A stretch of 64,000 nucleotides of DNA, taken from assembly GCA_934746015.1 (NCBI GenBank), contig CAKVEW010000004.1:62001-126000 (forward strand), read 5' to 3'. The notes under the pieces were generated by a model, which ran no database searches, had not been told where the DNA came from, and worked only from the letters and a program-made list of their open reading frames with translations. Shown one piece after another: positions 4,901 through 45,141 of this stretch (position 1 is the stretch's first letter; the number at the start of each line of letters is the position of its first letter). Made by a program: the position numbers and the translations under genes. The stretch is from an uncultured Clostridium sp. Lineage in GTDB: Bacteria; Bacillota; Clostridia; Clostridiales; Clostridiaceae.

Positions 4901-5605
4901 ATGAAAGTGGAAATTTGGTCAGATATTTTTTGCCCATTCTGTTATATAGGAAAACGTAGATTTGAAAATGCTTTAAGCAAGTTTAAAGATAAAGAAAAAG
5001 TCGAAATTGTATTTAGGAGTTTTGAACTAAACAAAGAGGCTCCAAAGATTAATAATAAAAACATTCATGAAGTAATTGCTGGGAAATATGGAATTACTAT
5101 TGATGAAGCAAGAAATAATAATTATAAGATTATAAACCAAGCTAAGACCCTAGGGTTAGATTATAATTTTGATGATTTAGTGTTAACAAATTCTTTTGAT
5201 GCACATCGAATGATTCATTATGCAAAAGATTTTGGTAAGAATGAAGAGATGACAGAGGCTTTATTTAAAGCCTACTTTACAGATTCAAAAAACATTAGTG
5301 ATTTTAATACTTTAGGAGATTTAGCAAATAGTATTGGCTTAAATAAAGAAGAAGCTATTAATTTCTTAAATAGTGATAAATATAAAGATGAAGTTAGGGA
5401 AGATGAAGCATTAGCAAGAAATTATGGGATTTCTTCTGTACCAACATTTATATTTAATAATAAGTTTAAGGTTACAGGAGCTCAACCTGAAGATGTCTTT
5501 TTAATGGCACTAAATAAGGTTGTTGAAGAAGAAAAGTCTTCTTTAAATCTAGATGATAATAACCAAAGGGAAAATGTATGTATAGATGGAAAATGTAGTC
5601 TTTAA
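4901..5605 (+). CDS. DsbA-family (FrnE-like) thiol oxidoreductase
   Basis: A 234-residue cytoplasmic protein with a thioredoxin fold carrying a helical insertion. The active site is C11-P-F-C14 within DIFCPFCYIG, followed by the FrnE-like MIHYAKDFGK region and the cis-Pro segment SSVPTFIF. It has no signal peptide, so it acts in the cytosol, unlike periplasmic DsbA. Length and motifs match the DsbA family oxidoreductases related to FrnE and polyketide-type isomerases. The last residues (CIDGKCSL) add a second Cys pair that could bind metal or act in redox; this tail is outside the core fold. It lies 21 bases after the DUF47 gene, probably on the same transcript, and ends at a terminator. Confidence 0.88.
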   Translation: MKVEIWSDIFCPFCYIGKRRFENALSKFKDKEKVEIVFRSFELNKEAPKINNKNIHEVIAGKYGITIDEARNNNYKIINQAKTLGLDYNFDDLVLTNSFDAHRMIHYAKDFGKNEEMTEALFKAYFTDSKNISDFNTLGDLANSIGLNKEEAINFLNSDKYKDEVREDEALARNYGISSVPTFIFNNKFKVTGAQPEDVFLMALNKVVEEEKSSLNLDDNNQRENVCIDGKCSL

Positions 5606-5622
5606 TAAATAATATAATATAT

Positions 5623-5665
5623 AATCTGTGACTATAAATTAATATAATCACAGATTTTTATTTTA
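5623..5665 (+). terminator. Intrinsic terminator after the DsbA-family gene
   Basis: A perfect 9-bp stem (AATCTGTGA at 5623-5631 with TCACAGATT at 5648-5656) is followed by TTTATTTT. Confidence 0.85.
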
Positions 5666-5724
5666 TGTTACTAAGATAAGTAATAAAAATGTAGAAATAT
5701 TGTAAAATTTTTATTAGAAAAAAG

Positions 5725-5753
5725 TTGACAATGTTTACATAGTATATTAAAAT
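5725..5753 (+). promoter_or_regulatory. Sigma-A promoter of the beta-glucoside operon
   Basis: TTGACA at 5725-5730 and TAAAAT at 5748-5753 are separated by 17 bases, an almost ideal sigma-A promoter. It sits about 30 bases upstream of the first RAT, as expected for an antitermination-controlled leader. A weak CcpA-like stretch overlaps the -35 and spacer but is not called. Confidence 0.8.
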
Positions 5754-5780
5754 AATGATATGTTAATGAGGATCCATTTA

Positions 5781-5811
5781 CGGATTGTTACTGGAAAGCA
5801 GGCAAAACCTA
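5781..5811 (+). promoter_or_regulatory. RAT 1, LicT/BglG antiterminator-binding RNA
   Basis: The ribonucleic antiterminator pattern GGATTGTTACT...GCAGGCAAAACCT is present at 5782-5810, matching the LicT/SacY family consensus. Its 3' arm (AAAACCT) is shared with the left arm of the terminator that follows, so the two structures exclude each other. Confidence 0.92.
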
Positions 5812-5877
5812 AATTGATACCAAATTAGTTTTAGTAGGGGTACTATAACTATTTGATATTGATTTGGGTTTTTTTCT
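5805..5877 (+). terminator. RAT 1-controlled leader terminator before licT
   Basis: The left arm (about 5805-5819, starting in the RAT) pairs over about 15-16 bp, with three G-U pairs, with the right arm ending in GATTTGGGTTTTTTT (5861-5875). The T-run gives an intrinsic terminator about 65 bases before the antiterminator gene. Confidence 0.85.
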
Positions 5878-5941
5878 ATAATTCAGTTATATAATATATT
5901 CTATATTTCTAATAGAAAATTAAACAGAAGGAGTTAGAGAT

Positions 5942-6778
5942 ATGCTTATAAATAAAGTGTTAAATAACAATGTCATTACAATTATTAATGAAAATGATGA
6001 AGAAGCAGTAGTTATGGGGAGAGGGATAGCCTTTCAAAAGAAAAAGGGTGATGAGGTTGATAAGGAAAAGATAGATAAGATATTTGTTTTAAAAAATAAA
6101 AGTATCAATGAGAAGTTAATTGAATTAGTTAAAGATATTCCTGTAGAAAACTTGGAAATTGCTGAAGAAGTAATAAAGTATGCTGAAGAAAAGTTAGATA
6201 CAAAATTAAATGAAAATATTTATTTAACACTTACTGATCATATAAGCTTTTCCTTAAACAGGTATGAAAATAATTTAGAAATGAAAAATGTTATGCTTTG
6301 GGATATAAAAAGATTACATAAAACAGAATTTTCTATAGGGATTAAAGCATTAGAAATAATTAAAAATAGATTTGGTATAGAGCTTCCTGAAGATGAAGCT
6401 GCAACTATAGCTATGCATATCTTAAATGGAGAGTTAAGCCAAGATATGCCACAAATAGTTGATATAATAAATTTGATTAATGAAGTTCTTAAGATAGTAA
6501 AATATCATTTCAATATAGATTTTGATGAAGAATCAATTAATTATTATAGGTTTGTCACTCATTTAAAATTCTTTGCTCAAAGATTAGTAAATGGGAAATA
6601 CTATGAGGACAATGATAATGAACTTTTTGAAATGATTAAAGATAAATATCCTAAATCCTATGAATGCACTAAAAAGATTGATGGATTTATAAAAAAGAAG
6701 TTTGATAATGAACTAACAAAAGAGGAAAAATTATATCTTATAGTTCATACAGCGAGAGTTGTAAAGGAAAATTATTAG
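5942..6778 (+). CDS. licT: LicT/BglG-family transcriptional antiterminator
   Basis: A 278-residue RNA-binding antiterminator that controls the beta-glucoside operon. The first 55 residues are the CAT RNA-binding domain (KVLNNNVITIINENDEEAVVMGRGIAFQ). Two PTS-regulation domains follow, with conserved phosphorylatable histidines in LTDHISFSL and MHILN (PRD1) and in RFVTHLKFFAQRL and IVHTARV (PRD2). By family knowledge, the cognate IIBCA permease phosphorylates and inactivates PRD1 when no substrate is present, and HPr activates PRD2. Its own leader carries RAT 1, giving autoregulation, and RATs 2 and 3 lie between it and the permease. GAAGGAG precedes the ATG. Confidence 0.93.
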   Translation: MLINKVLNNNVITIINENDEEAVVMGRGIAFQKKKGDEVDKEKIDKIFVLKNKSINEKLIELVKDIPVENLEIAEEVIKYAEEKLDTKLNENIYLTLTDHISFSLNRYENNLEMKNVMLWDIKRLHKTEFSIGIKALEIIKNRFGIELPEDEAATIAMHILNGELSQDMPQIVDIINLINEVLKIVKYHFNIDFDEESINYYRFVTHLKFFAQRLVNGKYYEDNDNELFEMIKDKYPKSYECTKKIDGFIKKKFDNELTKEEKLYLIVHTARVVKENY

Positions 6779-6797
6779 AATTAAATTTTACTTTATA

Positions 6798-6829
6798 AGG
6801 ATTGTAACTGAGGCTATCAGGCAAAATCT
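6798..6829 (+). promoter_or_regulatory. RAT 2, LicT-binding RNA between licT and bglP
   Basis: AAGGATTGTAACTG...CAGGCAAAATCT matches the RAT pattern, with AATCT in place of AACCT at the 3' end, which leaves a G-U pair in the basal stem. It overlaps the left arm of the next terminator. Confidence 0.88.
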
Positions 6830-6926
6830 AAGTTAGAAAATATTTAACTAATAGGAATACATTCTACATTTAAATATTATTATGCATTTATAAATGTTAA
6901 GTATTATGATAATTTAGGTTTTTTAT
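6823..6926 (+). terminator. RAT 2-controlled terminator between licT and bglP
   Basis: Left arm AAAATCTAAGTT (6823-6834) pairs over 12 bp, with two G-U pairs, with AATTTAGGTTTT (6911-6922), followed by TTATTATA. The loop is about 76 bases and contains smaller hairpins (for example around CATTTATAAATG at 6885-6896). Transcription into the permease gene should stop here unless RAT 2 is bound. Confidence 0.75.
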
Positions 6927-6996
6927 TATATACTGATAAATAATTTATGTTTGGAGGAGATAGCAGGAAATTAATTTTATAACTGGAAGTTTCATA

Positions 6997-7027
6997 GGAT
7001 TGTAACTGATTCGATCAGGCAAAACCT
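6997..7027 (+). promoter_or_regulatory. RAT 3, immediately upstream of bglP
   Basis: GGATTGTAACTG at 6997-7008 and CAGGCAAAACCT at 7016-7027 form a third clear RAT. Unlike the other two it is not followed by a terminator. Its 3' end (7026-7027) runs into a hairpin that contains the bglP ribosome site. Confidence 0.88.
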
Positions 7028-7076
7028 TAATTCTTCAAAACTTAAATAATTTAAATTTTGAAAGTGAGGAATTAAG
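7026..7076 (+). promoter_or_regulatory. Hairpin sequestering the bglP Shine-Dalgarno, next to RAT 3
   Basis: CTTAATTC (7026-7033) pairs perfectly with GAATTAAG (7069-7076), and UUCA (7034-7037) can continue with UGAG (7065-7068). The bglP ribosome site GAGGA (7066-7070) is therefore inside the stem. An inner TTCAAAA/TTTTGAA pairing (7034-7040 with 7056-7062) is an alternative extension. No T-run follows, so this is not an intrinsic terminator. It overlaps RAT 3 by only two bases. Confidence 0.6.
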
Positions 7077-7078
7077 CT

Positions 7079-8938
7079 ATGAATTTTGAAAATTTAGCTA
7101 AATCAATTTTAGAAAAAATAGGCGGAAAAGAAAATGTATCAAATTTAACACACTGTGCAACAAGACTAAGATTTAATCTGAAGGATAAGTCAAAGGCAAA
7201 TACATCAGCAATAAAAAATATTAATGGTGTTATGGGTGTAGTTGACAAAGGAGGTCAATACCAAGTAATAATAGGTAATGATGTAAACCATGTTTATAAA
7301 GAAATAACTAAAATTGCAAAATTAGATAACACGACTTCTAATACTGAAGAAGTAGATGATCGTAAACCAGTAGCAAAAGTTATTGATACAATAACAGGTA
7401 TATTTACACCTATATTACCTGCTATTACAGCAGCAGGTATGATGAAAGCAGTTCTTTCATTATTAACTGCCTTTAAATTAATAACTACAACTTCACAAAG
7501 CTATCAAGTTATAAACTTTATGGCTGATGCTGCATTCTATTTCTTACCAATATTACTTGCAAACTCAGCTGCTAAGAAATTTAAATGTAATCAATACCTA
7601 GCAATGATGCTTGGAGGAATGTTATTACATCCAACATTTGTGACAATGGTTAATACAGCTAAGGAAGCTGGAACATCTGTATCAGTATTTGGATTACCAA
7701 TTTCTTTAGCATCATATAGCTCAAGTGTATTACCTATAATACTTGGTGTTTGGTTTATGTCATATGTTGAACCAATTGCCGATAAAGTATCACCAAAGGC
7801 TATTAAATTCTTTACAAAACCATTAATTACAGCAGTTGTTACAGGAATAGTTTTATTAGTAGTAATTGGACCTTTAGGATATATAATAAGTGATAAAGTA
7901 GGATTAGGAATTAAAACTTTAGAAACTTATGCTAGTTGGTTAGTTCCAACATTATTAGGAGGATTAACACCATTATTAGTAATGACAGGTACTCACTATG
8001 GACTTATACCAATAGGTATAAATAATCGTATGACTATGGGATATGATACTATTATTTATCCAGGAATGTTAGCATCAAATGTATCTCAAGGTGGAGCTGC
8101 TTTAGCAGTAGCATTAAAAACTAAGGATTCAGAAATAAAGCAATTAGCATCTTCAGCAGGTATAACAGCAGTTTGTGGTATTACAGAACCAGCTTTATAT
8201 GGAGTAAACTTAAGATTTAAAACTCCTTTATATTCATCTATGATAGGTGGAGCAGTTGGTGGATTATTTTTAGGATTATTCCGTGTATGCAACTACTCAG
8301 GAGGTTCTCCAGGATTTTTAACTTTACCAAGTTATATTGGTGGAGATACAATGATGAATTTTGTATATGCTTGTATAGGAGCAGTTATTAGTGTTGTTGT
8401 TTCATTTGCAACTTGTTTAGTTTTATATAAAGATAAAGAAGAAGTTCCAGTTAAGGAAGAGGAAAAGATACAAAGATCATTAGGAAATGAAATTATTATA
8501 GCTAGTCCTATGAAGGGTGAAATATTACCTTTAAATGAAGTTAAAGATGAAACTTTTGCATCAGAAATGATGGGAAAAGGTGTAGCTATTAAACCAGTAG
8601 ATGGAAAAGTTGTATCTCCAATAAATGGAACTGTTGAAACAATATTTAAAACAAAACATGCTATAGGATTAAAATCTGAAGATGGTACTGAAATTCTTAT
8701 TCATATTGGAATGGACACAGTTCAATTAGAAGGTAAACACTTTAAAGCTTATGTTAAAGATGGAGACAAAGTAAAGATAGGGGATACATTAATAGAATTT
8801 GATAAAGAAGCTATTAAAAAAGAAGGTTATGAATTAATAACACCTGTTATAGTTACTAATACAAATGATTATTTAGAAGTATTGGCTAGAGGAGTAAAGA
8901 AAGTTAATACTGGTGATGCAATTATAAGCATTATATAA
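7079..8938 (+). CDS. bglP: Beta-glucoside PTS permease, IIBCA fusion
   Basis: A 619-residue PTS permease that imports and phosphorylates beta-glucosides such as salicin, arbutin or cellobiose-type sugars. Domain order is IIB (1-90, phosphocysteine C26 in LTHCATRLRF), IIC (about 105-455, ten or so membrane segments, with the GITEPALYGV substrate-site signature) and IIA (about 480-619, phosphohistidine H542 in LIHIGMDTVQLEG). It also serves as the sensor that phosphorylates the antiterminator encoded upstream. Expression is gated by RAT 2 and its terminator and probably by the RAT 3 hairpin at its ribosome site. The GH1 gene follows after a small hairpin. Confidence 0.95.
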   Translation: MNFENLAKSILEKIGGKENVSNLTHCATRLRFNLKDKSKANTSAIKNINGVMGVVDKGGQYQVIIGNDVNHVYKEITKIAKLDNTTSNTEEVDDRKPVAKVIDTITGIFTPILPAITAAGMMKAVLSLLTAFKLITTTSQSYQVINFMADAAFYFLPILLANSAAKKFKCNQYLAMMLGGMLLHPTFVTMVNTAKEAGTSVSVFGLPISLASYSSSVLPIILGVWFMSYVEPIADKVSPKAIKFFTKPLITAVVTGIVLLVVIGPLGYIISDKVGLGIKTLETYASWLVPTLLGGLTPLLVMTGTHYGLIPIGINNRMTMGYDTIIYPGMLASNVSQGGAALAVALKTKDSEIKQLASSAGITAVCGITEPALYGVNLRFKTPLYSSMIGGAVGGLFLGLFRVCNYSGGSPGFLTLPSYIGGDTMMNFVYACIGAVISVVVSFATCLVLYKDKEEVPVKEEEKIQRSLGNEIIIASPMKGEILPLNEVKDETFASEMMGKGVAIKPVDGKVVSPINGTVETIFKTKHAIGLKSEDGTEILIHIGMDTVQLEGKHFKAYVKDGDKVKIGDTLIEFDKEAIKKEGYELITPVIVTNTNDYLEVLARGVKKVNTGDAIISII

Positions 8939-9021: not shown

Positions 9022-10464
<1,443 letters not shown>

Positions 10465-13675: not shown

Positions 13676-16600
13676 ATGAAAAATATTAAAAAGCCAGCTC
13701 TTTTTATATTGATAACATTAATATTACAATTATTTTCAGGAATTAATTTTACCAATATAGTAAAAGCTGAAGAAAACAAAGATTTTAAATTTATTACATC
13801 AATTGAATTAACTGATTTTGATAATAAACCTTTAAAAGATGATATTGATAAATCATCAGATGTACGTGTTAACTTTAATTTTGAAATTCCAAATATGAAA
13901 GATGTAAAAAAAGGAGAAATTTTCACTGTCAATATACCAAATCAAATTCAACTAATAAGCAATTTTGATAAGGAATTACTTGATGAAGATGGTGAAGTAG
14001 TTGCTATAGCTCACTTTGATAAAAGTGGAAAAATAGCTATAGAATTTACTGATTATACAGGAGGTTATTCTGATGTAAAGGGTAATTTCTATTTAGACAC
14101 AAAGTTTGATAAAAATAATATTGGAAATGAACCAATTGAAAAAATAGAATTTAATTTATCAGGACAAGCAGAACCAGTTGTTGTTGAAATCAAATTTAAA
14201 CAAGATCCGATTCCTGAAGTTTCTATATCAAAATGGAGTGATGGATATGATGGAATAAAAAATGAAATTACTTGGAAGATAGAGTTCAATAAGGAAAATG
14301 TCAATGTTAAAAATCCTATAATAATAGATAATATTCCTTTAGGTCAAGAGTATATAGAAGGATCAGCTACAATAGATAATGGAGCTGATAAAAATGGGTT
14401 TTCTTATGTACCTGTAGCAAATGATGGCACTAAGTCTGGAACAGTGACTTATAACTTCCAAGGAGAAGTTAATAAAAAATATATAATTTCTTTTAAAACT
14501 AAAATAAGTGATGCAAGTATTTTACCAGAGGAACAAGGGAAAAGTGTAAAATTAACTAATAAGGCAATAGTTAATTATAATAATATTAATAAGGAATCTA
14601 ACGAAGCTTCTGTTGATGTTAAGACAAATTATATTGAGAAGTCTGGTAAGTATGATGCTAATGGGAAAAAGATAGATTGGACTATTAAGGTAAATAACAA
14701 TTCTTTAGAACTTAATAATTTAAAGGTGGAAGATGTTATACCAAAAGGATTAGAGCTTATTAAAGGCTCATTTGAAGTTAATAATACAGCAAATAATACT
14801 TATCAATATGATGAAGCAAATAAAAAACTTGATTATACATTTAACGGAACAATTAATACTCAACAAATAATTAAATTCTCTACTAAAGTTGTAGACGAAA
14901 AGGTTTATCAATCAAATGAAACTACTAACTTCACAAATACTGCAACTATATTGGAAGGATTATCAGGTAAACCGTATTCAAGTGCTAATGTAGGAGTAGG
15001 TAGTAATATTTTGAAAAAAAGTGCTGAAGGTACTTATAATACAGTTAATAATTACTTAAAATGGAAGATAGAAGTTAATAGTAATGAAGTAAAGCTTGAA
15101 AATCCAATAGTAACAGATAATATTCCTATAGGTCAAAAGTATGTAGATGGAAGTTTAAAAATAGACGGATTAAAGCCTGATACTAACAAATTTACTTATA
15201 AAGTTGCGGATAGTGGAGATACAAAAAAAACAGGAACTATTACTTATAGCTTTAATGAAACTATTAACAAAAAGTATGTCATTACATTTGAAACTGAAGT
15301 TTCTGAAAGTAGTATTTATGCAGGAAATATTAATAATAAACAATATAGCAATATTGCATATATGAAGGCTCATAATATATCAGAAGAAGTTAATAGTAAA
15401 GCCGATCAAAATGTTAATAGTAATGTTATTGATAAAAAATCAGTAAATTATGATGCTATAAAAAAAGAAATTACTTGGAAGATATTTGTTAATAATAATA
15501 AAACTAAATTAGGACAGGTAGTAGTTACATATAATATCCCTTTAGGACAAGAATATGTTGAAAACTCTGCATCTATAAACAATAAGGATGGTTTATTTGA
15601 TTATAAAAAGGCAGATGAAAATGATACAGAAAAAACAGGAACGTTAACTTATAGATTTAATAATGAAATAAATGATACCTATGAAATTACTTTTAAAACT
15701 AAAATTATAGATGATTCTATTTTTTATACAAATGGGGAGAAGAAAGTCGAAAATACTGCTAAGATAAGTGGAGATGTTATACCACCAAATGTCATTACTA
15801 AAGCAGAACAAATAATTAAGAACTCAGTAATTAGTAAATCTGCAAATTATCAATGGGGGAATGACTATATTGATTGGAATGTAGTTATTAATTCTAATTC
15901 AATCCCCATGGGAAAAGTAATTGTTGAAGATAATTTGCAAGAGGGATTAGAATTAGATACAGCAACTGTAGAATTATGTAAACAAACTTTAAATTCTGAT
16001 GGATTATTAGTGAAGGGTGATGCTGTTATTTTAAATAAGAATAGTGTACAATATGATGTTAATAAAAGGAACTTTATATTTGATTTTTCAGATGAAGTAG
16101 ATACACCATATTTATTAACATTTAGAACAAATATTGTAGATAAAAATAAACAACCATTCTCTAATACAATACAGTTTAAAGGTGGAAAAACAAATGCAGA
16201 AAGTACTGTCAATAATGTTAGAGTAGAATTTCAATCTGGTGGTGGTAGTGAAATAGGTACAAGAGGATCAATTACCATATTAAAATTAGATAAGGATAAT
16301 AAAAATGCAAAGCTTAAGGGAGCAAAATTCAATTTAATAGATAGATACGATAATGTAATAGCAACAGGTGAAACTAATGAAAATGGTGAATTGAAATTCA
16401 ATAAAATCAAATTTGATATACCATATACTGTAGAAGAGATAGTAGCACCAGAAGGATACACTTTAGGCGAAAAGAATTTTTATGAGTTTACTATAAATAG
16501 TACAGATGATAACAAAAATATTTCGTACTCTTTTTACAATAAAGCTATTAAAGGATCAATAGAATTAAATAAAGTTGATGAAGATAAAAATCCACTAAAG

Positions 16601-18607
16601 GGAGTAGAATTTACTTTATATAATTCACTAGGTGAAAAAGTGGTATCTTCAGAATCAAATGATAAGGGGATTGTAACATTTATTGATGTTCCTTATGGGA
16701 ATTATACTGTTAAAGAAACTAAGCCATTAGAGGGTTATTTAAAGAATGATACTATTTATTCCTTTGAGATTAAAGAGGATGGAAAGACAGTAAAAGCAGA
16801 AAACTCAGTAGAAAATAAAATAATAAGAGGAAATATTAAAGTAGTAAAAGTAGATGAAGATAATAAGCTTTTATCAAATGCATATATAACTTTAGTAGAT
16901 TTAGATGGAAATGTAGTACAAACAGCAATAACAGATGCAAATGGAGAAGTTACATTTACGAATGTTCCTTATGGAAAATATAAAGTGAGAGAAACTAAGG
17001 CTCCAGAAGGATATAACCTTTCAGAAGAGATATTAGATGTAAACATAGATAAAGAAGAAACTAACGAACTTTATGAAGCAGGAACAATTACTAATACTAA
17101 AATTAAAGCTAACATAAAAATTAATAAGTTAGATCAAGATAAGAATAAAGTGATTGGAGCAGAATTTACACTTTATAATAATGAAGATAAGATTATTGCA
17201 ACTGCAGTAACAAATACTGACGGAATAGCATTATTTGAAGATGTAGTATATGGAGATTATTATATTAAAGAAAGTAAGACTCCCAAAGGTTATATTGGAA
17301 CCGATAAAAATGTAGAAGTAAGAGTTGAAAATAATAATAAAGAATATTTCTATGAAGTTGAGAATACTAGAATAAAAGGTGTATTAGAAATTTCTAAGAC
17401 TGATAAAAATGATAATCCATTGAAAGGTGCAGAATTTACTGTTTATGATTCATATGACAAAGAGATTCAAAAAGCTGTAACAGATGAAAATGGCTTAGCT
17501 AAATTTGAAAATTTAGTTTACGGAAGTTACTATTATGTAGAAACTAAGGCACCAGAAGGGTATGTATTAGATAGTAATATACATGCTTTCGAAATAAAAG
17601 ATAATGGAGTTGTTTTAAAAGAAACAGTAAATAATGAGCAAATTGTAGGAAATATTAAAGTAGTAAAAGTAGATGAAAATAATAATCTTCTAGCAAATGC
17701 TGAAATCACTTTATATGATTTAGAAGGTAATATAGTTGAAAATGCTATAACAGATGAAAATGGACTAGTTGTATTTGCAAATGTGCCTTATGGAGAATAT
17801 GAAGTAACAGAAACTAAAGCTCCAGAAGGATACAACCTTTCAGAAGAAGTATTAAAGGTTAGTGTAAATAGTAAAGAAACTGGATTAGTTTATGAAGCTG
17901 GAACAATTACTAATACTAAAATTAAAGCTGATATAAAGATTAATAAATTAGATCAAGATAAAAACAAGGTAATTGGAGCAGAATTTACTCTTTACAATAG
18001 TGATGATGTAGTTATATCAACAGCATTAACTAAGGAGGATGGAACAGCAGTATTCGAAGATGTAGTATATGGAGATTATTATATTAAAGAAACTAAAACT
18101 CCAGAAGGATATATTGGTACTGATGAAAAAATTGAGGTAAGTGTTAAAGAGAATAATTCAGTATATTCATATGAAATTGAAAATACTAGAATAAAAGGAA
18201 ATTTAGAAATTAAAAAAGTTGATGAAGATGGGAATCCACTAAAGGGAGCAGAATTTACTCTATACAACAAAGATGGTAAGGAAATATCAAAATCAATTAG
18301 TGGCGAAAATGGAATAGCTAGATTTGAAGCTGTTGATTATGGTAATTATGTAATAAAAGAAACTAAGGCTCCAGAAGGATATTTAAAGGAAGAAACTGAA
18401 GTAGAAGTTGTTGTAGATTCACAAAAAACTCAGGTATTTACTTTTAAAAATAATAAGATTCAAGATGGTACTGATAACTTAGGTAAGGGAGGGCTTCCTT
18501 CAACAGGATCTGCTTTCGATTCAAAGTTATTATTAATAGTTGGATTAGTACTAGTTTTAGCTGGTAGTGGATTTATGTTAAAGAGAAAGGTAAAAGTAAA
18601 TAAATAA
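13676..18607 (+). CDS. LPXTG-anchored surface adhesin with CnaB repeats
   Basis: A 1643-residue cell-wall protein. Residues 1-33 are a signal peptide. About 35-175 is an N-terminal beta-sandwich like those of MSCRAMM adhesins (VRVNFNFEIPNMKDVKKGEIFTVNIP). Five repeats of about 130 residues follow (about 183-850), each with a WKI/VxxN...PLGQEYVEGSxxI core. Eight CnaB (SpaA-like) repeats run from 863 to about 1597; each has the Lys near its start and the Glu of ETKxPEGY that form an intramolecular isopeptide bond in this family. The sortase signal LPSTG is at 1607-1611, then a membrane helix and KRKVKVNK. It probably mediates binding to host or community surfaces; the ligand is unknown. Confidence 0.92.
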   Translation: MKNIKKPALFILITLILQLFSGINFTNIVKAEENKDFKFITSIELTDFDNKPLKDDIDKSSDVRVNFNFEIPNMKDVKKGEIFTVNIPNQIQLISNFDKELLDEDGEVVAIAHFDKSGKIAIEFTDYTGGYSDVKGNFYLDTKFDKNNIGNEPIEKIEFNLSGQAEPVVVEIKFKQDPIPEVSISKWSDGYDGIKNEITWKIEFNKENVNVKNPIIIDNIPLGQEYIEGSATIDNGADKNGFSYVPVANDGTKSGTVTYNFQGEVNKKYIISFKTKISDASILPEEQGKSVKLTNKAIVNYNNINKESNEASVDVKTNYIEKSGKYDANGKKIDWTIKVNNNSLELNNLKVEDVIPKGLELIKGSFEVNNTANNTYQYDEANKKLDYTFNGTINTQQIIKFSTKVVDEKVYQSNETTNFTNTATILEGLSGKPYSSANVGVGSNILKKSAEGTYNTVNNYLKWKIEVNSNEVKLENPIVTDNIPIGQKYVDGSLKIDGLKPDTNKFTYKVADSGDTKKTGTITYSFNETINKKYVITFETEVSESSIYAGNINNKQYSNIAYMKAHNISEEVNSKADQNVNSNVIDKKSVNYDAIKKEITWKIFVNNNKTKLGQVVVTYNIPLGQEYVENSASINNKDGLFDYKKADENDTEKTGTLTYRFNNEINDTYEITFKTKIIDDSIFYTNGEKKVENTAKISGDVIPPNVITKAEQIIKNSVISKSANYQWGNDYIDWNVVINSNSIPMGKVIVEDNLQEGLELDTATVELCKQTLNSDGLLVKGDAVILNKNSVQYDVNKRNFIFDFSDEVDTPYLLTFRTNIVDKNKQPFSNTIQFKGGKTNAESTVNNVRVEFQSGGGSEIGTRGSITILKLDKDNKNAKLKGAKFNLIDRYDNVIATGETNENGELKFNKIKFDIPYTVEEIVAPEGYTLGEKNFYEFTINSTDDNKNISYSFYNKAIKGSIELNKVDEDKNPLKGVEFTLYNSLGEKVVSSESNDKGIVTFIDVPYGNYTVKETKPLEGYLKNDTIYSFEIKEDGKTVKAENSVENKIIRGNIKVVKVDEDNKLLSNAYITLVDLDGNVVQTAITDANGEVTFTNVPYGKYKVRETKAPEGYNLSEEILDVNIDKEETNELYEAGTITNTKIKANIKINKLDQDKNKVIGAEFTLYNNEDKIIATAVTNTDGIALFEDVVYGDYYIKESKTPKGYIGTDKNVEVRVENNNKEYFYEVENTRIKGVLEISKTDKNDNPLKGAEFTVYDSYDKEIQKAVTDENGLAKFENLVYGSYYYVETKAPEGYVLDSNIHAFEIKDNGVVLKETVNNEQIVGNIKVVKVDENNNLLANAEITLYDLEGNIVENAITDENGLVVFANVPYGEYEVTETKAPEGYNLSEEVLKVSVNSKETGLVYEAGTITNTKIKADIKINKLDQDKNKVIGAEFTLYNSDDVVISTALTKEDGTAVFEDVVYGDYYIKETKTPEGYIGTDEKIEVSVKENNSVYSYEIENTRIKGNLEIKKVDEDGNPLKGAEFTLYNKDGKEISKSISGENGIARFEAVDYGNYVIKETKAPEGYLKEETEVEVVVDSQKTQVFTFKNNKIQDGTDNLGKGGLPSTGSAFDSKLLLIVGLVLVLAGSGFMLKRKVKVNK
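16829..18466 (+). repeat. Tandem 819-bp duplication of three CnaB repeats in the adhesin
   Basis: CnaB repeats 3-4-5 (16829-17647) and 6-7-8 (17648-18466) are two copies of a 273-residue three-domain unit: repeat 3 resembles 6, 4 resembles 7, and 5 resembles 8 more than neighbours resemble each other. Many nucleotide stretches are identical, such as the GGAAATATTAAAGTAGTAAA openings. Such in-frame tandem copies can expand or contract by recombination. Confidence 0.85.
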
Positions 18608-44948: not shown

Positions 44949-44969
44949 GTAAGTGTAATAAGAAATAAA

Positions 44970-45116
44970 AATTCGGTAGGTGAGGTTACCACAAGGATAC
45001 GGGTTGCTGCCGCAAAATAGTGGAGACACTATGAGAAGGTTAGCAGTCGATGTCGAAACCAAGGCATAGACTAATGCAATTTCATCGCCTTGTGATACTG
45101 AAGCTTGAACGAGAAT
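44970..45116 (+). ncRNA. M-box (ykoK) Mg2+ riboswitch
   Basis: The core pieces of the M-box are present in order: GGTAGGTGAGG near 44975, ACAAGGATAC-GGGTTGCTGCCGC (44990-45013), the GAAGGTTAGCAGTCGA region, GTCGAAACCAAGGCATAGACTAATGC and the closing CGCCTTGTGATACTGAAGCTTGAACG. It sits in the leader of a magnesium P-type ATPase, the expected context. By family knowledge, Mg2+ binding favours termination downstream. Confidence 0.9.
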
Positions 45117-45141
45117 AAAGTAAATTAATTTACTTTATTAT
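45113..45141 (+). terminator. Hairpin directly after the M-box
   Basis: AATAAAGTAAATT (45114-45126) pairs with AATTTACTTTATT (45127-45139). It is AT-only and lacks a proper T-run, so it may be an alternative or antiterminator pairing rather than the terminator itself. Confidence 0.45.

Follow-up and report, generated by a model that had tools for sequence, protein, structure and literature searches.

A ribonucleic antiterminator adjoining a Shine-Dalgarno-hiding stem: predicted translational activation of bglP by LicT in Clostridium

INTRODUCTION

What could a ribonucleic antiterminator (RAT) do where no terminator follows it? The question is raised by a beta-glucoside phosphotransferase system (PTS) operon of a Clostridium, consisting of licT, bglP, and a family 1 glycosyl hydrolase gene, which lies in a 64,000-nucleotide stretch of contig CAKVEW010000004.1 (assembly GCA_934746015.1), hereafter the window. 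In protein family (CAT_RBD plus PRDs), in its RATs, and in operon logic, this locus follows BglG/SacY/LicT-RAT antitermination as in bgl/lic, and the first two of its RATs, RAT1 and RAT2, are that system. The third, RAT3, differs in that its 3' end is common with a stem that hides the bglP Shine-Dalgarno sequence (SD), and it has no terminator. A preliminary description of this DNA proposed that LicT would both relieve a terminator at RAT2 and open a ribosome site at RAT3. Based on leader comparison and RNA folding, we consider it likely that LicT activates bglP translation at RAT3, besides its role in antitermination; the case is best for relatives in which a CCUUC at the end of the RAT pairs with an SD of GGAGG.

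The BglG/SacY/LicT family is a textbook example of transcription antitermination. The literature excerpts on which we draw describe a two-RAT-terminator layout for C. acetobutylicum bglGTH (PMC12628678), a mapped bglP terminator in S. mutans (PMC1489936), and, as an established point for B. subtilis LicT, that with beta-glucoside present the active protein carries no phosphate on PRD1 (PMC7430163); one further source is a review (PMC4347634). Terminator-less RATs have been recorded in both E. coli and B. subtilis and hint at roles besides antitermination, for which the excerpted parts of that paper give no mechanism (PMC12502629). No translational control by a BglG/SacY-family protein was found in the literature searched, which comprised titles, abstract openings, and selected passages, with most subscription papers outside it.

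RESULTS

RAT3 adjoins a stem holding the bglP SD

RATs were recognized by a pairing scheme and consensus that we take to be those of the family. The sequence consensus is additionally given in PMC12628678, as excerpted. RAT3 matches this consensus and the corresponding hairpin with its two internal loops. No run of five T's occurs between RAT3 and the start codon, the longest being a TTTT in the stem loop, and the hairpin terminator found at RAT1 and RAT2 is absent here; the description of RAT3 as a good RAT without a terminator is therefore upheld. A generic terminator scan was set aside as uninformative because the long terminators of RAT1 and RAT2 were also missed.

The stem proposed to start at the end of RAT3 and to hold the SD was recovered as a full 12-bp helix (P3, 7026-7037 with 7065-7076), with 11 Watson-Crick pairs and one U-G, and in the predicted fold the window SD lies within this stable stem, as an off state would require. 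P3 shares with the RAT core only C7026, plus U7027, which is able to pair with A6996. The minimum-energy fold adds a second helix (P1, 6991-6997 with 7077-7083) that pairs the AUG and uses the first G of RAT3. The point where P1 and P3 come together is precisely the RAT closing pair G6997-C7026, which the RAT must give up if SD and AUG are to be hidden. In addition, a GAAG (6986-6989) is predicted to be able to pair with CUUC 7033-7036 until the SD arm is transcribed. The small overlap between RAT and stem had been named as the weak point of the proposal; it stays weak in that the equilibrium effect is modest, while P1 and the GAAG clamp would, as folding and conservation suggest, strengthen the coupling of RAT and SD.

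A BglP search of one genome collection gave 79 loci from the best 80 of 121 matches. The window-type leader was present in 8 of these 79 loci among the matches kept and in two further loci found by genome searches (L170 and L188; L and G numbers are our handles for loci and genomes); the window and these ten relatives form a set of 11 leaders. Invariant in all 11 are the GAAG (4 of 4 columns), both sides of P1 (6990-6997, 8 of 8; 7077-7083, 7 of 7), the P3 5' arm (12 of 12), and all but one of the 12 columns of the P3 3' arm; pair 7037/7065 is A-U in six leaders and A-C in five. Pairwise identity is 0.69 to 0.72 in the upstream spacers, 0.69 in the RAT loop, and 0.82 in the P3 loop, and 16 of 28 third codon positions are invariant. 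The apical stem of RAT3 differs in both arms between two groups of leaders (CUGAU/AUCAG versus CUAG/CUAG, by eye) and is therefore kept as a RAT hairpin. The SD-hiding structure adjoining RAT3 exceeds chance: its arms are conserved in the 10 relatives, and only 1 of 150 spacer shuffles equaled the cost of opening the window SD.

Two further observations concern the region upstream. Between the RAT2 terminator and RAT3 (6953-6961), the window has an SD-like GGAGGAGAT box without a start codon, whose GAGG is invariant in the 11 leaders; comparable boxes (AAGGAGGTGAT, AAGGTGGTGAT, and AAGGGGTGAT) stand ahead of the RATs next to SDs in L005, L052, and L239. The box could be a ribosome standby or mRNA-stabilizing site. 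A leader peptide between RAT2 and RAT3 was rejected, as start codon and frame are not conserved across leaders (by eye).

RATs near start codons lack terminators

The RAT pattern matched 38 of 68 genomes of the genus, and a reversed control pattern matched none. From the relatives' loci, 120 distinct RATs were classified; the window is not among them, and entries with identical flanks were dropped beforehand, so that L170 and L188 lost their SD-type RATs as duplicates. The 3' end is common with a hairpin followed by T's in 107. The remaining 13 were flagged as lacking such a shared terminator: eight window-type RAT3 elements, three of a second SD type, RAT2 of L059, and L190. Eleven of the 13 sit 31 to 60 nt ahead of a start codon with an SD-hiding stem, and within the classified set every RAT closer than 62 nt to a start codon (11 in all) is of the SD type and has no terminator. 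RAT2 of L059 was rejected as SD-type, its T-runs lying at least 152 nt downstream, as was L190, with a long hairpin and a T-poor tail.

Two loci have tandem arrangements of their own. In L190 (reverse strand, about 101 to 360 from its end) lie the tandem RATs of G026, whose apical stems are unusual; behind the second comes the long hairpin, which pairs the RAT 3' half and ends in the T-poor tail. In L241, tandem RAT-terminators precede a non-PTS-like open reading frame (ORF), followed by a glycosidase-like ORF (by eye).

A direct design uses the RAT's own CC as anti-SD

Five loci in four genomes (L052, L182/L239, L146/L240, L237, and L258; G008, G020, G025 twice, and G170) carry a more direct arrangement. 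Here the RAT ends in CC-UUC, and CCUUC pairs with the SD GGAGG, so the closing CC of the RAT is itself the anti-SD. The distance from RAT to start codon is 31 to 40 nt in the four loci computed. By eye, the loci differ at pair 6 (two G-U, three A-U), at pair 7 (three A-U, two U-A, a change in both partners), and at pair 8 (four U-A, one U-G). In predicted folds of the full leader, RAT closure is 0.000 to 0.002 and the CC/GG pairs form at a probability of at least 0.90 in all five.

An order search matched 10 places in 8 of 225 genomes, five of them the direct-type leaders (4 of 225 genomes); the reversed control pattern matched twice. The other five places were rejected: three lie inside an open frame, L257 is without a preceding RAT, and a second place in G150 was assigned from its matched letters, which are identical to those of L255. 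In L052, L239, and L258, a small hairpin follows the SD-like box, with arms that have changed yet still pair (GTATCAG...CTGATAC, GTATCAG...CTGGTAC, and TTATTG...CAATAA), and ahead of it, directly after licT, lies a RAT-like half, AGGATTRTTATYA (both by eye).

Predicted folding order and cost of opening the SD

For RNA reaching CUUCAAA, the predicted probability of GAAG/CUUC pairing is 0.77 to 0.99 and that of RAT closure 0.73 to 0.93 in 11 of 11 window-type leaders. Just before the SD arm, the clamp is down to 0.02 to 0.56 and RAT closure to 0.11 to 0.81, probably because an inner hairpin of the loop competes, judging from prefix folds of the window. In the full leader, GAAG/CUUC is at 0.00 and RAT closure at 0.01 to 0.06 in all 11 (window, 0.05). 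In these folds, the RAT would be whole and the anti-SD occupied for a time during transcription, when LicT would act; the transient clamp also gives a reason for the invariance of GAAG, which lies outside P1.

The cost of opening GAGG (kcal/mol) was computed with the leader free and with the RAT forced, in nine of the 11 window-type leaders (L170 and L188 being outside this set) and in the direct type. In the window it falls from 5.8 to 3.5 (a drop of about 2.2 to 2.3), and from 7.1 to 4.1 for the stretch from SD through AUG. Window-type relatives behave similarly in direction: L001, 5.8 to 4.4; L002, 7.4 to 5.0; L003, 2.9 to 2.3; L004, 2.6 to 2.1; L005, 2.5 to 2.0; L006, 7.2 to 5.2; L051, 4.8 to 3.2; and L059, 5.8 to 4.1. 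Direct leaders gave 4.8 to 1.8 (L052), 6.5 to 1.3 (L146), 5.9 to 1.1 (L182), and 5.3 to 1.2 (G170; 5.0 to 0.7 with more context). The drop is thus 3.0 to 5.2 in four of five direct leaders and about 0.4 to 2.3 in the nine window-type leaders, and forcing the RAT cuts the cost in 13 of 13 leaders folded. Terminator-type controls gave a mean drop of 0.05 and a largest of 1.7 (22 of 27 leaders; in the other five, RAT or SD fell outside the script's strict patterns). The predicted energies support a strong static switch for the direct type only.

The RAT-to-SD spacer was also shuffled 150 times per leader, in trimmed context, for 13 leaders. The SD-opening cost was equaled by 0 to 11 shuffles (six each for L003 and L051), and the drop by 0 to 4 in L001, L003 to L005, and the four direct leaders tested. 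Together, these models support an SD-hiding stem beyond chance in most leaders, though weakly where L004 and L005 are considered individually.

SD-type leaders occur in three BglP clades

A BglP tree of 75 rows was built by a quick method with SH-aLRT branch support; truncated proteins and L035 were dropped beforehand, the RAT of L043 (up to three mismatches) was recoded as no RAT, and L258, found later, is absent. SD-type leaders fall in three clades, namely, the window clade of nine, L237/L240, and L052/L239. Supported branches force at least three changes of the SD label, whether gains or losses. L007, L009, and L046, the rows sister to the window clade, are terminator-type. A covariance model run on 20 sources found no new type; besides five window-type leaders, its better matches were known RATs. 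A separate pattern search gave four matches, three judged terminator-like from the matched stretch only and one, G215, examined in full.

Evidence against translational activation at RAT3

Several results weigh against activation of translation by LicT at RAT3. Homologous leaders had been expected to reveal covariation in 7026-7037/7065-7076 if the stem mattered; across the 11 leaders none was found in P1 or P3, where little can be counted because the arms, apart from pair 7037/7065, do not vary. Folding with and without the RAT constrained, the other check suggested at the outset, did lower the SD-opening cost; the effect is modest, and the window SD is mostly paired even with the RAT forced (3.5). 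As many as 15 to 22 of 150 shuffles equaled the drop in the window (22), L002, L006, L051, and L059, and 11 shuffles each equaled the SD-opening cost in L004 and L005. For L003 to L005, the drop is 0.4 to 0.6 in long context and 1.9 to 2.0 in short, so energy figures depend on the piece folded. L258 goes only from 2.3 to 0.8 (a drop of 1.5). Before the SD is transcribed, predicted RAT closure is low in L240 (0.07) and L258 (0.01), which weighs against a simple cotranscriptional version for the direct type. The leaders are also rare: in an even draw of 391 Clostridia, the strict RAT pattern matched two, each of the window type, and no SD-type leader was recognized in Bacilli, where it matched 8 of 299 genomes, all judged terminator-like from the matched stretch only. 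The strict pattern would miss variants such as L258.

Operon context

Features of the operon are collected in Table 1. The operon carries the cognate CAT/PRD regulator for its RATs. Window BglP shares 91% identity with its counterpart in Clostridium sp. MAG28 and 83 to 84% with those in C. sartagoforme AAU1, C. gallinarum, and C. nigeriense. No promoter was recognized directly before RAT3: the region 5600-7200 has 13 promoter-like matches on both strands against a shuffle mean of 14.1, and the sole plus-strand candidate between the RAT2 terminator and RAT3, rejected, scores 9/12. No curated Rfam family matched the leader at gathering scores; the only match in the window was an M-box (magnesium) riboswitch at 44965-45122 (106.5 bits). 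Elsewhere, positions 13676-18607 hold an ORF of 1643 aa that resembles a surface protein, in which similar segments recur and an LPSTG motif lies close to the end (by eye).

Table 1. Features of the licT-bglP operon and of the RAT3 leader in the window
Feature	Coordinates	Strand	Basis
Promoter-like TTGACA-17-TAAAAT, upstream of RAT1	5725..5753	+	consensus match 11/12
RAT1, upstream of licT	5782..5809	+	RAT pattern and fold
Intrinsic terminator, AAAACC in common with RAT1	5804..5876	+	fold and T-run
licT, antiterminator of the BglG/SacY family (CAT_RBD and two PRD stretches)	5942..6778	+	domain matches
RAT2	6799..6828	+	RAT pattern and fold
Intrinsic terminator overlapping the 3' end of RAT2	6823..6922	+	RAT pattern and fold
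GAAG clamp, partner of anti-SD CUUC 7033-7036 in the predicted transcription intermediate	6986..6989	+	invariant in 11 leaders
P1 5' arm UUCAUAG, partner of CUAUGAA 7077-7083 (start codon)	6991..6997	+	fold; invariant in 11
RAT3, GGATTGTAACTG...CAGGCAAAACC	6997..7026	+	consensus match, fold, apical stem covaries between relatives
P3 5' arm CUUAAUUCUUCA (anti-SD)	7026..7037	+	fold, leader alignment
P3 3' arm UGAGGAAUUAAG, contains SD GAGG 7066-7069	7065..7076	+	fold, leader alignment
P1 3' arm CUAUGAA, spans start codon 7079-7081	7077..7083	+	fold, leader alignment
bglP, beta-glucoside-type PTS enzyme IIBCA (EIIB, EIIC, EIIA), controlled gene	7079..8938	+	domain matches
Glycosyl hydrolase family 1; 6-phospho-beta-glucosidase by context	9025..10464	+	domain match

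DISCUSSION

We infer that LicT binds RAT3 and that binding raises bglP translation; because the equilibrium effect in the window is modest, capture of the RAT by LicT would take place during transcription. Without active LicT, the leader would fold into a three-way junction in which P3 hides the bglP SD and P1 the start codon, the two helices pulling apart the closing pair of the RAT and keeping translation off. As the leader is synthesized, the RAT, clamped by GAAG/CUUC, would close ahead of the SD arm. With beta-glucoside present, LicT unphosphorylated at PRD1 would be active and would bind and hold the closed RAT3, so that P1 and P3 are disfavored and the SD becomes accessible to the ribosome. 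LicT would then read one signal twice for bglP, by antitermination at RAT2 and by translation activation at RAT3. The original idea of one protein relieving a terminator and opening a ribosome site gains comparative support from the 11 conserved leaders, the direct design, and the three BglP clades, and it is held back by a stem without covariation and a modest equilibrium effect.

Of the alternatives, the best surviving is that P1 and P3 do no more than set a low constitutive translation rate and that RAT3, as a remnant or duplicate, has lost its terminator, which we regard as unlikely. Static coupling in the window is indeed modest, tandem RATs exist, and decayed RAT remnants lie upstream in L052, L239, L237, and L258 (by eye). 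Yet all 11 leaders retain RAT3 as a complete RAT whose stem covaries, and SD-type elements occur in three clades, two of them with the RAT's own CC as anti-SD. In L052, L239, and L237, moreover, the SD-type RAT is intact though the intergenic RAT-terminator ahead of it looks decayed (by eye), which suggests that the SD-type element can serve alone.

It is improbable that LicT bound at RAT3 mainly protects the bglP mRNA or steers its processing, for example, at an RNase site, with initiation not directly affected. The SD-like box without a start codon upstream of RAT3 would fit such a role, as would the cooperation of NagY and RNase III at a RAT in Enterococcus faecalis (PMC12502629, as excerpted), but processing leaves unexplained both why the SD lies in the 3'-end stem of 11 terminator-less RATs close to start codons and why the RAT's CC pairs with the GG of the SD in the direct type. 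Very improbable is feedback in which LicT lowers translation by locking the junction or blocking ribosomes, since, although the apical RAT stem is compatible with P1 and P3 in the minimum-energy fold, the closed RAT is hardly populated in the predicted full leader, forcing it eases SD opening in all 13 SD-type leaders compared, and a LicT-induced operon would oppose itself.

Activation of translation by LicT at RAT3 can be set beside known systems. The trpE leader of Bacillus subtilis has an SD-hiding hairpin. There, one RNA-binding protein, TRAP, acts on transcription attenuation and on translation (PMC7430163, whose excerpts cover both LicT and TRAP). TRAP, however, lowers expression and binds triplet repeats, whereas LicT at a RAT hairpin is predicted to raise it. 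ANTAR proteins have an RNA-binding domain and an RNA target unrelated to those of LicT and RAT. For that family, antiterminator elements without terminators have been noted at ribosome binding sites and translational control proposed (PMC3369931 and PMC8164766). In translational riboswitches, a sensor fold and an SD-hiding stem exclude each other; the folds predict such exclusion strongly for the direct type and in part for the window, and the ligand here would be a protein, LicT.

Overall, sequence comparison upholds the finding as real and conserved, and as broader than the window alone could show. We think it somewhat probable that RATs are protein-sensing modules with interchangeable outputs and that three Clostridium BglP lineages have exchanged or supplemented the terminator with an SD-hiding stem, which would make BglG/SacY-family PTS regulators direct translational activators, with one design using the RAT's CC as anti-SD. 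The SD-type leaders would offer a mechanism for terminator-less RATs, in which a single gene responds to one PTS signal at two levels. They would also constitute a natural translational on-switch under the control of a protein whose RNA-binding domain is known and small.
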